Source of the DNA: Campylobacteraceae bacterium
Lineage (GTDB): Bacteria; Campylobacterota; Campylobacteria; Campylobacterales; Arcobacteraceae
Direction of reading: 5' to 3'
NCBI GenBank assembly: GCA_013373175.1
Contig: JABXII010000013.1
Location: 62,001 to 126,000 of the forward strand
Length of the DNA stretch: 64,000 nt
Every line of letters begins with the position of its first letter. Within the stretch, counting starts at the first letter, position 1. Shown here one piece after another: positions 17,354 through 45,696 of the stretch. The notes beneath the pieces were generated by a model, which worked only from the letters and a program-made list of their open reading frames with translations, did no database searches and had not been told where the DNA came from. The position numbers were made by a program, and so were the translations under genes.

Positions 17354-17491
17354 TATTTATTCCTTTAAAAATGTTCCATTTTTCAAGGGAACCTTTTTAT
17401 TTATTAACACTTTTTTGTCATGATTTATAAAAAATCATTAAAAAGTGACCAAAAACTCTAAAGGAGATAACGAGTTATCTCTTTTTTTGTT
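17354..17491 (-). promoter_or_regulatory. structured intergenic RNA element, copy A (sufB-sufC)
   Basis: Read on the transcribed (minus) strand, the 138-base gap folds into three parts. Hairpin 1 is at 17464-17481 (GAGATAA stems, CUCG loop), and a conserved UCCUUUAG follows. Hairpin 2 is at 17408-17447 (outer CACUUUUU pairing, inner AUGAUUU/AAAUCAU, 3' bulge GAC). Hairpin 3 is GGUUCC/GGAAC (17373-17377 with 17388-17392). Its loop is complementary over 10 of 11 bases to the segment holding the sufC Shine-Dalgarno (17362-17372). The doeD-doeC gap carries the same layout and conserved single-stranded blocks. Hairpin 1 plus T-rich flanks could also act as a partial terminator. This may be a cis-regulatory RNA or a dispersed repeat. 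Confidence 0.65.
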
Positions 17492-36370: not shown

Positions 36371-38314
36371 ATGAAAAAGATTATTTCTTTATCTATGGCT
36401 TGCACATTATCTTTATTAGCTAGTGAAACAATTGATTTACCAACACTTGAAGTTTCTGAAAAAGTAAACAAAAAAGTTGTAAACAATATTAGTAGTGAGC
36501 AAATAAAATCAGCAGACTTAGCAGAGACTTTAGCTAAAAAAGTTCCTTCTATTAGTTTAGTAAGAAGAAGTGGTATTGCAAATGATATTATTTTAAGGGG
36601 AGCAAAAAAAGATAATATCAATGTTTTAATAGATGATAGTAAAATCTATGGTGCTTGTCCTAATAGAATGGATCCAGCAACTTCTCATGTTTTAACAAAT
36701 AATATAGAAAGTGTTGAAGTTATTGAAGGACCTTATGATATTGAAAACTTTGGTACTTTAAGCGGTCTTGTAAAAGTTAAAACAAAGCAACCAAGTGAAA
36801 AACTTACTGGTGATATTAATCTAGGGGTAGGTAGTTATGGTTATAAAAAGGGTTCATTTACTGTAAGTGGAGGAAATGAACATATAAAATTATTGTTATC
36901 TGCTTCAAAAGAAGAGTCTGATCAGTACAAAGATGGCAATGGGAATGACTTTTTAGATCAACAAATCGAAAAAAATGTTCCAAATGCAAATAGATATAAA
37001 AGTGAAGATATTGAAGCTTATGAAAAAGAGACTATTCTTACAAAGGCAATTTTTAATATAGATGATTCTTCTGAAATAACAGTATCATATACAGCAAATA
37101 GAAGTGATAATGTTTTATATCCTAATACTCCAATGGATGCAGATTATGACGATTCTGATATTTATACATTTGATTATACAAAAAGAAATTTAGGAGAATA
37201 TTCAAAAGAGTTAAACTTAGAATATTATTACTCAAAAGTTGATCATCCAATGAGTATTAGATTAAGAAATAATGCAAACAATATTATGCATCCTAATAAT
37301 ACTAACCATATGAAATCTTCAATTTGGGGAGCAAAACTAAAAAACAAACTTGATATTGCAAATGGTGAATTATTAGTTGGACTTGATACAAGTACAAGAA
37401 ACTGGCGAGGTAGAATGATAGATGATAATGGAGCATATTCTACATCATTATCATCAACTGATACAAGAAATATCGCGATGTTCTCTTCTTACAAAAAAAC
37501 ATTTGGAGCACTTGATTTAGAAGTAGGTGCAAGATATGATGATACTGAAATTGATGTTACTGATTCAGCGAAGACAGATAGAGATTATAATGAATTAAAT
37601 GGACATATCTTCTCTATATATAATTTAGATAAAGATACTAAAATTTTTGCAGGTATTGGTAAATCTTCAAGGGTTCCAGATGCAAGAGAGTTATACTATG
37701 GTTCAACAAACCATGATTTAGAAGCTACAAAAAACTATGAGATTGACTTAGGTTTTGAGAAAACTATTGGTGATTTCAATGTAAAAAGTAAACTTTTCTA
37801 TTCAAAACTTGATGATTATATTTATAATATGGGAGCAGGAAATTTTGAAAATATTGATGCTAAGATTTATGGTGCAAGTGTAAATGGGTATTATTTATTA
37901 AATGATGAATTTATTTTAGATTATGGGTTAGCTTATCAAAGAGGTAAAAAAGATGGAAATTATGCAGATAAAGATTTAGCAGAAATTCCACCATTAAAAA
38001 TGAATTTAAGCTTAACATATCAAAAAGATGTATCTAAATTTACTACAGAACTTGCTGCAGTTGATAATTGGAATGAGTATGACAGTACAGCAAGTGAGCA
38101 AGAATTAGATGGATACGCAGTTGTAAATATGAAATATGATAGAGAATTAAATAAGAACTTTAATCTAACACTTGGTGTTGATAACTTATTTGATAAAACA
38201 TATGCTTCTACAAATACTTATCAGGATATTAAATATATTCCTACAGCAGGTGAACAAACTCTTATTAACGATCCAGGTAGATATTTCTACGTAAATTTAA
38301 AATATACTTTTTAA
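36371..38314 (+). CDS. TonB-dependent receptor, OprC/NosA-like copper type (copy 1)
   Basis: The 647-residue outer-membrane receptor has a signal peptide (MKKIISLSMACTLSLLASE), a plug domain (SADLAETLAKKVPSISLV, DIILRGAKKDNINVLIDDS) and a 22-strand barrel ending in the Phe of VNLKYTF. In the plug, YGACPNRMDP puts Cys96 and Met100 in the CxxxM arrangement that binds copper in OprC. The likely substrate is therefore copper; this is inference from that motif. A close paralogue follows directly. Confidence 0.9.
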   Translation: MKKIISLSMACTLSLLASETIDLPTLEVSEKVNKKVVNNISSEQIKSADLAETLAKKVPSISLVRRSGIANDIILRGAKKDNINVLIDDSKIYGACPNRMDPATSHVLTNNIESVEVIEGPYDIENFGTLSGLVKVKTKQPSEKLTGDINLGVGSYGYKKGSFTVSGGNEHIKLLLSASKEESDQYKDGNGNDFLDQQIEKNVPNANRYKSEDIEAYEKETILTKAIFNIDDSSEITVSYTANRSDNVLYPNTPMDADYDDSDIYTFDYTKRNLGEYSKELNLEYYYSKVDHPMSIRLRNNANNIMHPNNTNHMKSSIWGAKLKNKLDIANGELLVGLDTSTRNWRGRMIDDNGAYSTSLSSTDTRNIAMFSSYKKTFGALDLEVGARYDDTEIDVTDSAKTDRDYNELNGHIFSIYNLDKDTKIFAGIGKSSRVPDARELYYGSTNHDLEATKNYEIDLGFEKTIGDFNVKSKLFYSKLDDYIYNMGAGNFENIDAKIYGASVNGYYLLNDEFILDYGLAYQRGKKDGNYADKDLAEIPPLKMNLSLTYQKDVSKFTTELAAVDNWNEYDSTASEQELDGYAVVNMKYDRELNKNFNLTLGVDNLFDKTYASTNTYQDIKYIPTAGEQTLINDPGRYFYVNLKYTF

Positions 38315-38432: not shown

Positions 38433-40385
38433 ATGAAAAAGGTTATTTCTTTATCTATGACTTGTGCTTTATCTTTATTCGCAAATGAAACTATTGATTT
38501 ACCAACACTTGAAGTTTCTGAAAAAATAAATACACAAGTAGTAAAAGATATAAGTTCTGAACAGATAAAATCTGCTGATTTAGCAGAAGCTTTAACAAAA
38601 AATGTACCTTCTATTTCTATTGTGAGAAGAAATGGAATTGCTAATGATATTATCTTAAGAGGACAAAAAAAAGATAATATTAACATCTTGATAGATAATG
38701 CTAAAATATATGGCGCATGCCCTATGCGAATGGATCCAACTATTTCACATATATTAACTAATAATGTAGAAAATGTAGAGATAATAGAAGGACCTTATGA
38801 TGTTGAGAATTTTGGTACTTTAAGTGGTAAAGTTAGTGTTCATACAAAACAACCAAGTAAAAAGCTTAGTGGTGATATTAATCTTGGCGTAGGTAGTTAT
38901 GGATATAAAAAAGGTTCCTTTACTGTTAGTGGTGGAAATGATTATGTAAAAGTATTATTATCTGCATCAAAAGAAGAGTCTGATCAATATAAAGATGGTG
39001 ATGGAAATGACTTTTTAGCTCAACAAAAACAAAGAGGTTTCCCTACTAAAAATGAATATGTAAGTGATGACTTAAAAGCATATGAGAAAAAAACTGTCTT
39101 AGCAAAAGTTTTTTTTAATCTCACAGATAATCAAGAGTTAAAATTATCTTATAATGCCAATAGAAGTGATAATATCTTATATCCAATGGGAGGAATGGAT
39201 GCAGATAGTGATGATTCAAATATATATACTATTGGATATACAGCTAAAAACTTATCTAGTTTTTCAAAAGAGTTAAATCTAGATTATTACTATTCTGATG
39301 TAGACCATCCTATGAGTACAAACCTTAGAAATAGTGGAAAAATGATGTTCATGACTAGCCATATGAAAACATCAATTTGGGGTGCAAAAATTAAAAATAG
39401 TATGGAATTAAAAGATTCTTTATTAACTTATGGATTAGATACTAGTACAAGAAACTGGAAAAGTGATAACTACATGACAAATAGAAACACAGGGGCTAAA
39501 ACTCCTATGTCTGATTCTTTTCCTTCAACAGACACAAAAAATAAAGCAATATTTATGAAGCTAGAGAAAAGTATTGGTAAGTTTAATATTGATATTGGTA
39601 CAAGATATGATAATACAACTATTGAAAATAATTTAAGAGAGAATAAATATGTTGCATTAAGTGGGAATATTTTTGCTTCTTATAATGCAAATGACACAAC
39701 GAAATATTTTGTAGGTTTTGGTAAATCATCAAGAGTTCCTGATGCAAGGGAGTTATTCTATGGAAATATGGGAATGACACCTAGTTTAGATTTAGAGGAT
39801 ACAAAAAATTATGAATTAGATTTAGGGTTTGATAAAGTAATTGGTGATTTTAATATAAAAACAAAACTTTTTTATTCAAAACTTGAAGATTATATTTATA
39901 ACTTTGGAACTGAATTTGAAAATATTGATGCAAAAATTTATGGTATAGATATTAGTGGTTCATATTTAATAAATGAAAGTTTATTTTTAGATTATGGCTT
40001 TGCTTATCAAAGAGGTAAAAAAGATGGAAAATATGCAGATAAAGATTTAGCAGAAATACCACCTTTTAAAATGAATTTAGCACTAAACTATGAAGAGGGT
40101 AAATCAAAATTTACAACTGAAATTCTTGCAGTTGATAAATGGAATGAATATGATTCAAATGCAGATGAACAAGAACTTGCAGGGTACGCAGTACTTAATA
40201 CAAAATATAATTATGCTATAAATAAAAATTTTGATGTAACTTTGGGTGTAGATAATATTTTTGATAAAACATATACTTCAACAAATACATATCAAGATGT
40301 TAGTTATGTTGTATCAGGAGGAAGCAAGTCTTTATTAAATGACCCAGGTAGGTATATGTATTTAAATTTAAAATATACTTTTTAA
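38433..40385 (+). CDS. TonB-dependent receptor, OprC/NosA-like copper type (copy 2)
   Basis: This 650-residue receptor is a clear paralogue of the gene just upstream: near-identical plug, FGTLSGKVSVHTKQPS, RVPDARELFYGN and the same C-terminal barrel end. The plug motif is YGACPMRMDP, with Cys96, Met98 and Met100, one Met more than copy 1. Differences concentrate in presumed extracellular loops, for example residues about 205-230 and 330-350. A signal peptide is present (MKKVISLSMTCALSLFANE). Copper uptake is inferred from the CxxxM motif. Confidence 0.9.
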   Translation: MKKVISLSMTCALSLFANETIDLPTLEVSEKINTQVVKDISSEQIKSADLAEALTKNVPSISIVRRNGIANDIILRGQKKDNINILIDNAKIYGACPMRMDPTISHILTNNVENVEIIEGPYDVENFGTLSGKVSVHTKQPSKKLSGDINLGVGSYGYKKGSFTVSGGNDYVKVLLSASKEESDQYKDGDGNDFLAQQKQRGFPTKNEYVSDDLKAYEKKTVLAKVFFNLTDNQELKLSYNANRSDNILYPMGGMDADSDDSNIYTIGYTAKNLSSFSKELNLDYYYSDVDHPMSTNLRNSGKMMFMTSHMKTSIWGAKIKNSMELKDSLLTYGLDTSTRNWKSDNYMTNRNTGAKTPMSDSFPSTDTKNKAIFMKLEKSIGKFNIDIGTRYDNTTIENNLRENKYVALSGNIFASYNANDTTKYFVGFGKSSRVPDARELFYGNMGMTPSLDLEDTKNYELDLGFDKVIGDFNIKTKLFYSKLEDYIYNFGTEFENIDAKIYGIDISGSYLINESLFLDYGFAYQRGKKDGKYADKDLAEIPPFKMNLALNYEEGKSKFTTEILAVDKWNEYDSNADEQELAGYAVLNTKYNYAINKNFDVTLGVDNIFDKTYTSTNTYQDVSYVVSGGSKSLLNDPGRYMYLNLKYTF

Positions 40386-42804: not shown

Positions 42805-44199
42805 CTATTTAGCTGGTCCTACCCATACTTGTTGAGTATTCACAAACATCTTAATACCATGTGGTCCTAACTCTTTTCCAAGTCCAGATTTTTTTACACC
42901 ACCACTTGGAAGCCTAGGGTCTGATTTAACAATTCCATTTACAGAAACTTGCCCAGTAACAATTTTACCTGCTAATTTTTTCCCTTTTTCAACATCTCCT
43001 GTCCAGATTGAACCACCCAGACCATACTCTGTATCATTTGCAATTTTAATTGCATCTTTTTCATCTTTTGCTTTTATAACTGCTGCAATTGGTCCAAATG
43101 TTTCTTGGCATGATACTACCATTCCAGGATTTACATCTGCAAGCATTGTTACAGGGAAGAAGAAGCCTTGACCTTCATGTCTTTGTCCACCTAAAACAAG
43201 TCTAGCACCAGCTTGTACTGATCTATCTACTTGATTATGCATCTCTTCAACTAATTCTTCTCTTGCAATTGGTCCAATAGTAGTAGAGTCATCTTTTGGG
43301 TCACCTAGTTTTAATTTTTCAAATCTTGACTTTAATAATTCAATAAACTCTTCATAAATTGGCTCTTCTACAATTATTCTTTTTGCTGCAATACAAGATT
43401 GACCAGCATTGATATATCTAGAAAGAACAATAGTATCAGCAGCTTTTTCTAAATCTGAAGTATCTGCTAATACAATAGCAGGATCACTTCCTCCTAATTC
43501 TAAAACTACAGGTTTTATTTCATTTCCTGCAATTGCCCCAACACTTGCACCTGCTTTTGAAGACCCTGTTAAAGATACTCCTTTTACAATAGGGTTTCTA
43601 ATAACAGACTCTAAGCTTTCATGTCCAATCACTAAGTTTTGAACTAAGTTCTTTGGAGCTCCAGCTTTTTCAAAAGCTTCTACAATTCTTACTGCACAAA
43701 GTGGAGTGTGGGAATCATGCTTCATAACGCAAGCATTTCCAGACATCAGTGCAGGTGCTAGATATCTAAATGCTAACCAAAATGGAGCATTCCAAGGTAA
43801 AATTCCTAAGGTTACTCCTAAAGGAAGATATTGCACATAACTTTCACTTGCATCTGATTCAAGATATTCAGTTTTTAAATAATCTTCTCCAAACTGTGCG
43901 TAATGTTCTGCTGCCCATGCAGCTTTATTTACTTCGCCCCTTGCTTCATTGATAGGTTTTCCCATCTCTTCAGTCATAGGAAGTGCATAGTAATCAAGAT
44001 TATCTTTCATCTCTTTAGCTACACTATTTAAAAGTTCTGCTCTTTTTTCATAACTTGTATCTTCCCATGTTGTTTCAAAAACATCTTGGGCTTTTTCTAT
44101 AATTTCTCTTGCTTCTTGCTGTGTATGCATTTTTATTTCATATACTACTTCTTGTGTATATGGATTAATTGATTTAAAGTGTGTATTGCTATATCCCAT
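42805..44199 (-). CDS. doeC: NAD(P)-dependent aldehyde dehydrogenase, probable aspartate-semialdehyde oxidising DoeC
   Basis: The 464-residue ALDH has ILPWNAPFWLAFR, VSLTGSSKAG, the catalytic Glu in VVLELGGSDPAIV and Cys in NAGQSCIAAKR, plus ETFGPIAAVI near the C-terminus. It resembles succinate-semialdehyde dehydrogenases. In the doe context it should oxidise aspartate semialdehyde to aspartate. Its Shine-Dalgarno AAGGA is the 3' arm of the structured element that separates it from doeD. Confidence 0.87.
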   Translation of the reverse strand: MGYSNTHFKSINPYTQEVVYEIKMHTQQEAREIIEKAQDVFETTWEDTSYEKRAELLNSVAKEMKDNLDYYALPMTEEMGKPINEARGEVNKAAWAAEHYAQFGEDYLKTEYLESDASESYVQYLPLGVTLGILPWNAPFWLAFRYLAPALMSGNACVMKHDSHTPLCAVRIVEAFEKAGAPKNLVQNLVIGHESLESVIRNPIVKGVSLTGSSKAGASVGAIAGNEIKPVVLELGGSDPAIVLADTSDLEKAADTIVLSRYINAGQSCIAAKRIIVEEPIYEEFIELLKSRFEKLKLGDPKDDSTTIGPIAREELVEEMHNQVDRSVQAGARLVLGGQRHEGQGFFFPVTMLADVNPGMVVSCQETFGPIAAVIKAKDEKDAIKIANDTEYGLGGSIWTGDVEKGKKLAGKIVTGQVSVNGIVKSDPRLPSGGVKKSGLGKELGPHGIKMFVNTQQVWVGPAK

Positions 44200-44319
44200 T
44201 TTTCTATCCTTAAAAAATGTCCCAGTTTTTAAGGGACCTAAATTTATTTATATTTTCTTTTAGCGATGAGAATAATCTCATCTAAAGAAACAAATCCTAA
44301 AGGAAGCAACGAGTTGCTT
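44200..44319 (-). promoter_or_regulatory. structured intergenic RNA element, copy B (doeD-doeC)
   Basis: The 120-base gap has the same architecture as the sufB-sufC gap. Hairpin 1 is at 44304-44319 (AAGCAA/UUGCUU, CUCG loop), then UCCUUUAG. Hairpin 2 spans 44254-44290 (outer UUUCUUU/AAAGAAA, inner GAUGAGA/UCUCAUC, 3' bulge GCU), then AAUAAAU. Hairpin 3 is GUCCC/GGGAC (44219-44223 with 44233-44237), whose loop side CCUUAAAAA is complementary to UUUUUAAGG holding the doeC Shine-Dalgarno. Stem sequences differ from copy A but pairing is kept, while loop and linker blocks are identical. The element begins right at the doeD stop codon. Confidence 0.65.
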
Positions 44320-45564
44320 TTATCCTAAAACTGCTTCTACTGAAGCCACAAATCTATTTAGGCCCTCATTTAAAACATCATCTTCAATTGTTAAAGGAGG
44401 AATAAATTTAATAATTTCACCCGTTGAGCAAGCACCAATGATTAAACCATTTTCATAACATTTACCAGTTATTTCTTTAACTGTACTTGCATTATCAAAC
44501 TCAATTGCTAACATCATTCCTTTTTGTCTAATTTCAATAACTTGTGAGTATTTAGAATTAAGTTCATCTAAAACTTTTCTAATAATGTCACCTTTTCTTT
44601 TTGTTTCATTATTAAACTCTTCATCTTTAAAATATTCAATACCAATTTTTCCTGCTACAAAAGATAAACCTTGTCCTCTGAATGTTCCTGTATGTTGTCC
44701 TGGACTCCAAGCTTTATCAAATTCAGGTTTATTTATTAACATTGCAATTGGTGTTCCAACACCACCTAAACCTTTTGCTAAAATAATAATATCTGGGTCA
44801 ACATCTAAATCATCAAAACTAAAGTAACTTCCACATCTTCCACTACCACACTGAATACTATCTAGTATAAATAGTGCTCCTGTGTCATTTGCTAATTTTT
44901 GAACTCCTTGTAGCCACTCTTTTGTTGCAGGTCTAACTCCACCTTCTGCTTGAACAGGCTCAACAATAAATGCTGCAGGAGGTAACATACCAGAACCTAA
45001 ATCAAACATTTTTTGTCTAAGGTTTTCTAAGGCTTCCAGGTCATTAAATGTATCTCTAATTACATTTGTTAAAGGAACACCTGAACTACTTCTAAATGCA
45101 TTATTAGCAGTACAAGCTAATGCTCCAAGAGTCATTCCATGGAATCCTCTATTAAAAGCAACTACTTCTGTTCTTCCTGTAACTTTTCTAGCTAGTTTTA
45201 AAGCTGCTTCAACTGCATTTGTTCCAGTTGGTCCAGTAAACTGAAGTTTTCTATCTTCCCATCCTCGTGGTTTTAACACTGTTTCAACAAAAGTGTCAAT
45301 AAACTCTCTTTTTACATCAGTAAACATATCTAAAGAGTGAATAACACCATCTCTTTGAATAAAATCAACAATTGCTTCTTTCATCTTAGGATTATTGTGA
45401 CCAAAGTTTAAAACACCAGCACCAGCAAAGAAGTCAACAAACTCTTTGTCATTTTCATCTGTCATAACAGCATTTTTAGATTTTTTAAATACTGTTGGAA
45501 CTGCTCTACAATATGCTCTTATTTCTGATTCGTTTCTTTCGAATGTTGTAATTTCATTTGTCAT
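44320..45564 (-). CDS. doeD: diaminobutyrate aminotransferase, probable DoeD (EctB-like)
   Basis: The 414-residue class III PLP aminotransferase resembles EctB/DoeD: FFAGAGVLNFGHNNP, TGPTGTNAVEAALKLAR, AFNRGFHGMTLGALA and IIILAKGLGGVGTPIAML with the PLP Lys. DoeD converts diaminobutyrate to aspartate semialdehyde. EctB runs the reverse for ectoine synthesis, but ectA and ectC are absent here while doeA and doeC follow. The start at 45564 (MTNEITTFE) is chosen because AAAGGA lies 6 bases upstream; the longer frame to 45615 has no such site. Confidence 0.88.
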   Translation of the reverse strand: MTNEITTFERNESEIRAYCRAVPTVFKKSKNAVMTDENDKEFVDFFAGAGVLNFGHNNPKMKEAIVDFIQRDGVIHSLDMFTDVKREFIDTFVETVLKPRGWEDRKLQFTGPTGTNAVEAALKLARKVTGRTEVVAFNRGFHGMTLGALACTANNAFRSSSGVPLTNVIRDTFNDLEALENLRQKMFDLGSGMLPPAAFIVEPVQAEGGVRPATKEWLQGVQKLANDTGALFILDSIQCGSGRCGSYFSFDDLDVDPDIIILAKGLGGVGTPIAMLINKPEFDKAWSPGQHTGTFRGQGLSFVAGKIGIEYFKDEEFNNETKRKGDIIRKVLDELNSKYSQVIEIRQKGMMLAIEFDNASTVKEITGKCYENGLIIGACSTGEIIKFIPPLTIEDDVLNEGLNRFVASVEAVLG

Positions 45565-45607
45565 TTTAGATCCTTTTTTTATTTTTGATTTGTAATAGTA
45601 TGTGAAA

Positions 45608-45696
45608 AGACCCATCCTAATTTGAATAATTAATGTACAAATTAGTTATTCCTTGAAACAATTAATATTTTATTGTATTAATTGTTGGAAGGGTCT
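45608..45696 (-). promoter_or_regulatory. three-way-junction leader RNA candidate upstream of the ectoine operon
   Basis: On the minus strand the segment can fold into a closing stem of 9 pairs with one mismatch (AGACCCTTCC at 45696-45687 with GGATGGGTCT at 45617-45608). It encloses an 11-bp hairpin (AACAATTAATA type, 45657-45667/45676-45686) and an 8-bp hairpin (CTAATTTG type, 45617-45624/45638-45645), joined by UCAAGGAAUAA. A UCUUUUC run follows the closing stem, so it could work as an attenuator. I could not match it to a known riboswitch class. Confidence 0.5.

Follow-up and report, generated by a model that had tools for sequence, protein, structure and literature searches.

A dispersed structured RNA cassette ending in the Shine-Dalgarno sequence of the next gene: a candidate translational attenuator of Arcobacteraceae

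INTRODUCTION

In the 64,000-nucleotide stretch of DNA from a member of the Arcobacteraceae that was analyzed here (the window), the gap between the ectoine-degradation genes doeD and doeC is filled by a structured element, and a second copy of it lies between sufB and sufC. This raises the question of what one and the same element does directly upstream of unrelated genes: whether it is a mobile sequence, a regulator of the initiation of the second gene, or a partial transcription terminator, as had variously been proposed for it. We addressed this question by comparing the two copies with each other and with their counterparts in related genomes.

RESULTS

The doeD-doeC and sufB-sufC gaps contain the same element

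On the minus strand, the doeD ORF ends at 44320 and the doeC ORF begins at 44199, so that positions 44200–44319 represent the exact intercistronic gap. DoeC is followed by the ectoine-degradation genes DoeA and DoeB2 (NCBIfam). The element in this gap (copy B, read from 44319 to 44200) is ~113 nt long and contains three hairpins (Table 1). The original prediction had placed it between the doeD stop codon and the doeC Shine-Dalgarno sequence (SD); the gap is exact, but the SD lies inside the element and not after it. The doe gap aligned with the sufB-sufC gap (copy A) at a mean column identity of about 79%. A covariance model, whose 19 training sequences included both copies, scored copy B with 114.9 bits (E 5.5e-20) and copy A with 83.4 bits (E 1.5e-13). 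The alignment of both gaps and the covariance model thus confirmed that the same structured element recurs at different sites; the model detected these two copies and no others in the window.

The window also holds repeats of other kinds. Two adjacent ORFs of ~650 aa (36371–38314 and 38433–40385) share long stretches of 72%–83% DNA identity and represent a tandem gene duplication, and short tandem-like repeats with a spacing of 12, 21, and 33 nt were observed inside an ORF at 2540–2788.

Table 1. Positions of the element copies, their parts and their neighbors. Coordinates are those of the window; locus handles are given for the copies at rRNA genes.
Feature	Position	Strand	Basis or remark
doeD, diaminobutyrate--2-oxoglutarate transaminase, upstream of copy B	44320..45615	(-)	ORF call + NCBIfam
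Copy B, hairpin P1	44304..44319	(-)	AAGCAACTCGTTGCTT; double changes in 5/7 P1 pairs
Copy B, linker J12	44291..44303	(-)	CCTTTAGGATTTG; CTTTAG invariant in 19 training copies
Copy B, hairpin P2	44254..44290	(-)	TTTCTTTA...TAAAAGAAA, variable inner hairpin; also recovered by independent RNAalifold consensus
Copy B, hairpin P3 (SD-free alternative)	44219..44237	(-)	GTCCC/GGGAC; covariation + RNAalifold consensus
Copy B, hairpin P4 (P3 loop + SD arm)	44208..44234	(-)	CCTTAAAAA...TTTTTTAAGG; covariation + energies
doeC SD AAGGA, last bases of copy B	44207..44211	(-)	sequence; ATG start at 44199
doeC-like aldehyde (semialdehyde) dehydrogenase, downstream of copy B	42805..44199	(-)	ORF call + NCBIfam
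Copy A, between sufB and sufC	17354..17491	(-)	alignment + covariance model; flanks NCBIfam
Copy A, P1	17464-17481	(-)	
Copy A, J12	17449-17463	(-)	
Copy A, P2	17408-17447	(-)	
Copy A, P3	17373-17392	(-)	
Copy A, P4	17362-17388	(-)	
Copy A, SD	17361-17365	(-)	
Antisense core after 23S rRNA	L334, L335, L344 (G247); L339 (G250); L368-L370 (G218)		

Covariation supports every helix of the element

The common structure of 19 copies from several genomes comprises P1, J12, P2, P3, and P4. Across these copies the P1 loop is mostly CUCG or CUUG, and the J12 linker, which may be boxA-like, contains an invariant CUUUAG. The outer stem of P2 is conserved and its inner hairpin varies. P3 is formed by GUCCC/GGGAC, and in P4 the loop of P3 pairs with the SD arm. 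RNAalifold recovered P1, P2, and P3 unaided.

In the 19 copies, pairing was intact in 94.7% of cells, with double changes in 22 of the 36 pairs. None of 500 shuffles reached the observed covariation, and sliding the structure by 1–3 columns lowered pairing to 47%–60%. When 102 copies were analyzed, the top 17 column pairs by mutual information all corresponded to predicted pairs, including those of P4. As judged from these sequence comparisons, every helix is backed by covariation, and compensatory change conserves the structure. The folding energies of the two gaps were modestly below those of shuffled sequences (z −1.7 and −1.5), and because single-sequence folding barely beats shuffles, the case rests on comparison.

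The inner stem of P2 contained G-U and A-C cells at a ratio of 20:2, as predicted for a sense RNA; in P4 both were equally rare (17:17). Among the pair cells that had changed between orthologous loci, 409 were still paired and 108 unpaired, compared with 42 and 475, respectively, in two-sequence chimeras, and this difference favors in-place selection on structure. Repeated independent insertion at one site could mimic such in-place compensation. The proportion of changed cells that were still paired at orthologous sites was 195/210 for the inner part of P2 and 80/143 for P4, where part of the complementarity stems from A/T-rich runs.

A search of Rfam 15 yielded no family above the gathering threshold and no match within the window, and copy B and four other loci gave chance-level Rfam matches only. 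Of note, extra hairpin modules, e.g., TCTCAAAGAGAGT...ACAAG and CTTCTTCATAGCGTCGTAG..., were inserted in J12 or the P3 loop region at some loci (L004, L175, L215, L216; L176, L178), which suggests a modular repeat family. Decayed copies that had lost P1 or P2 and kept P3 and the SD were observed at L212, L213, L214, and L216.

The element directly precedes the start codons of unrelated genes

In 109 of 112 copies a start codon followed the 3' end within 0–10 nt, in 106 of them within 5–9 nt, and all were in sense orientation. The model that defines the copies contains AAGGA, in which 99 of them end, and excludes the start codon; as a background, such a start follows 22.5% of the AAGGA sites in the window and 2.6% of its random positions. 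A same-strand ORF (≥70 codons) ended ≤150 nt upstream of 95 copies; it was ≤10 nt away in 49, and its stop codon overlapped the element in 21. The downstream genes were unrelated, with 72 protein clusters among the copies. Those recognized by eye encode glnB/PII, rubredoxin, IspH, CysK, HisA, SufC, and DnaJ, as well as urease alpha, nitrogenase, and hydrogenase-maturation proteins. Reading the proteins downstream of the 112 copies revealed no shared function or pathway that would point to a ligand. A single metabolite signal is doubtful because the downstream genes share no evident pathway.

The element had been thought to control the initiation of the second gene of an operon. Initiation control is the natural reading because the following gene takes its SD from the 3' end of the element, but the operon position did not generalize, as the remaining copies do not closely follow a same-strand ORF.

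The SD is predicted to be shared by two alternative hairpins

As judged from structure prediction and covariation, the SD is part of the structure of the element and is released in an alternative fold. Compared with control genes, the SD was predicted to be less accessible (mean unpaired 0.30 vs 0.52, Mann-Whitney p 4e-8), the predicted local energy gap between P3 and P4 was about 0–3 kcal/mol, and the complementarity of the loop to the SD covaries. P3 and P4 were handled as mutually exclusive hairpins, as we infer them to be. A full H-type pseudoknot between the SD arm and the loop of P3 was discarded as a candidate; it appears sterically unlikely because the entire loop would be paired.

Based on this, the cassette would be read in sense as part of the mRNA and would supply its own SD. 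P1-J12-P2 would form a conserved upstream domain, and the last ~35 nt could fold in two ways, either into P3 (GUCCC/GGGAC), which would leave the SD free, or into P4 (CCUUNAAAAN.../...NUUUUNAAGG), which would pair it. Because these two states are near in energy, the cassette should lower and set the translation of the next gene, by attenuation or by tuning of expression ratios within an operon. Switching would be possible if a ligand, a protein, upstream translation, or temperature stabilized P3. The low SD accessibility, the near-isoenergetic P3 and P4, and the G-U bias of P2 favor this two-form attenuator. The poorer retention of P4 at orthologous sites, its lack of a G-U bias, and a close relative in which the cassette is dispensable at suf and doe speak against it. 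We lean, with little more than even confidence, toward an old dispersed cis-acting RNA cassette that carries its own SD and attenuates or tunes the translation of the next gene. We infer its function from sequence and modeling, as we do the folding of the transcripts in the cell, whether and how strongly translation is lowered or raised, and any signal.

The original prediction had also suggested that the first hairpin partly terminates transcription and so lowers the downstream gene; several hairpins do lie between the genes, but such a partial terminator is hardly credible, since no terminator-like site was detected (0 sites by the criterion of a G+C-rich hairpin followed by a U-run), P1 is followed by CUUUAGGRUUUG and P2 likewise by no U-run, and P3/P4 leads into the SD and start codon.

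The family is dispersed, and its sites are occupied or empty in close relatives

A census built on covariance-model searches (model R1, E up to 0.1) gave 12 copies in the source genome, the last two of them weak and short, and 0–26 copies per genome among 60 relatives, nearly all of them Arcobacteraceae. The core-only model R2 found ten loci in the source genome, all within R1 loci, and no extras. BLAST with copy B and its flanks hit 22 of 41 relatives. Many of these hits covered just the repeat and lay at other loci; where the element was missing, the flanks matched separately. Hosts found by pattern scan were Arcobacter, Halarcobacter, Aliarcobacter, Poseidonibacter, and relatives.

In the proposed comparison of the gaps in relatives with and without the element, the doe site was occupied in G008 and empty in G010 (TTAGGTT-AAGGAGAAATTATG) and G009. 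The suf site was occupied in seven genomes, empty in six, and reduced to the SD-bearing 3' arm in two, and its occupied and empty states were interleaved on the sufB tree. In one close relative, the cassette is dispensable, since its suf and doe remnants keep the SD arm only. Near-identical units were arranged in tandem arrays at three loci, with AAG at two of the three junctions, and the element ends displayed no clear inverted repeats.

Mean identity was 0.704 between copies of the same genome, 0.708 between copies of different genomes, and 0.787 between orthologous copies. Since copies resemble each other no more within a genome than between genomes, we take the family to be old and reject a recent transposition burst; the pattern fits ancient dispersal plus gains and losses. 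The idea of a mobile regulatory RNA is therefore upheld as far as dispersal and the presence or absence of sites in close relatives are concerned, but not with respect to recent mobility.

A wider core family occurs at rRNA borders and in proviruses

In Campylobacter-family and Sulfurospirillum genomes, the P1-J12-P2 core was detected on its own, with the SD module lacking. Provirus-type IMG/VR contigs (L283-L304) contained one to several core copies as matched by a degenerate core pattern, some of them directly 5' of AAAAGGAG and a start codon. A blastn search of plasmid and phage records with a best copy gave no match. Outside Arcobacteraceae, 13 of 61 core copies preceded an SD and start codon by the criteria of the script.

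The core adjoins the 16S rRNA 5' end in sense in Sulfurospirillum and G347 (L337 and L338 in G347, L376 in G250), and two Sulfurospirillum operons differ within P2. It is antisense in the 23S-5S spacer, directly past the 23S 3' end, in G247, Sulfurospirillum, and G218. Of the rRNA operons of G218, two carry the core and one lacks it. The placements at rRNA borders, in proviruses, and in occupied and empty operons argue that the core moves or has moved, and that the Arcobacteraceae form is a derivative with an SD module.

A MITE-like or REP-like DNA element, mobile but non-autonomous, also has to be considered here. Its hairpins would serve its own transposition, any effect on translation would be incidental, and insertions 5' of AAGGA would survive because they leave the SD intact. 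Such an element would account for the core in provirus contigs and in two but not the third rRNA operon of one genome, for the scarcity of SD and start codons after core copies outside Arcobacteraceae, for the near-clean occupied and empty doe sites, for the interleaved suf states, and for the tandem units. It accounts poorly for the nearly universal sense orientation in Arcobacteraceae and for the lack of a recent burst, and the excess of G-U over A-C in P2 together with in-place compensation points to selection at the RNA level. An autonomous partner was not found either: an IS200/IS605-type Y1 transposase was rejected as the mobilizer, as its presence is uncorrelated with copy number and PF01797 was not found in the source genome, in G005 (22 copies), or in G021 (18 copies). 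We regard this explanation as unlikely, albeit worth serious consideration.

The core beside rRNA genes could alternatively reflect a portable signal for RNA processing or 5'-end stabilization. P1-J12-P2 would be cut or trimmed at its 3' side so that the mRNA begins just before the SD, and the same trimming would yield the 16S 5' end. This would explain the sense core right before 16S in Sulfurospirillum and one Campylobacter-family genome, but no clear core was found in the 16S leader of an Arcobacter relative or in those of other Campylobacter-family genomes. The antisense core past the 23S 3' end in other genomes again adjoins an rRNA end, but its orientation is unfit for a strand-specific signal. 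Since the P3/P4 module is also left unexplained, we consider a processing signal distinctly improbable.

DISCUSSION

The attenuating cassette toward which we lean would join two things that are each known, dispersed repeats and translational RNA switches. The joining features are the SD that it supplies with its final bases, its single orientation, the start codons at 109/112 sites, and the compensation of every helix. If true, one RNA module rewires the translation of many genes by moving. Cultivable Arcobacter would offer a natural experimental system, with the same module before many genes and empty sites in close relatives, and the origin of the module might be traced through the core copies at rRNA genes and in proviruses. 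A bolder version is conceivable, though rather improbable: a Campylobacterales-wide cassette would spread among rRNA borders and SD sites and would have turned, in Arcobacteraceae, into a plug-in translation switch that puts dozens of unrelated genes under one common signal via the shared RNA structure.

The cassette resembles translational riboswitches and SD-sequestering leaders in its pair of alternative hairpins with the SD concealed in one of them, in its conserved upstream domain, and in its sense orientation. It differs from riboswitches in its unrelated downstream genes, many copies per genome, and often intra-operon position, and in having no Rfam match and no known ligand. With REP/BIME, ERIC, BOX, and MITE sequences it shares the short, hairpin-rich, intergenic, and multicopy character and the empty sites between relatives. 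In contrast to these, it carries an SD, has one orientation in Arcobacteraceae, and is strongly compensated at fixed sites, and no partner transposase was found.

A genome-wide study of Arcobacter sp. L described unnamed structured intergenic motifs and HRC-4, mostly confined to the genus (PMC6429828). By these descriptions they are structured intergenic candidates like the cassette and may be the same family. In anatomy or placement, the nearest analogues found are the TIGR03647 riboswitch candidate and the TAACTGA repeats. In the TIGR03647 candidate, as described, a stem encloses the ribosome-binding site, and the stretch separating two hairpins contains a conserved CUUU, which might pair with this site; the motif is reported to precede a single symporter gene in all cases (Stav et al. 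2019, PMC6429828). The enclosing stem and the inter-hairpin CUUU resemble the cassette, which differs from this description in being dispersed upstream of unrelated genes. In Beggiatoaceae, the TAACTGA repeats lie just before the start codons of unrelated genes, and translational control is suspected (PMC4679880); unlike the cassette, they are heptamer direct repeats, mostly without an SD.
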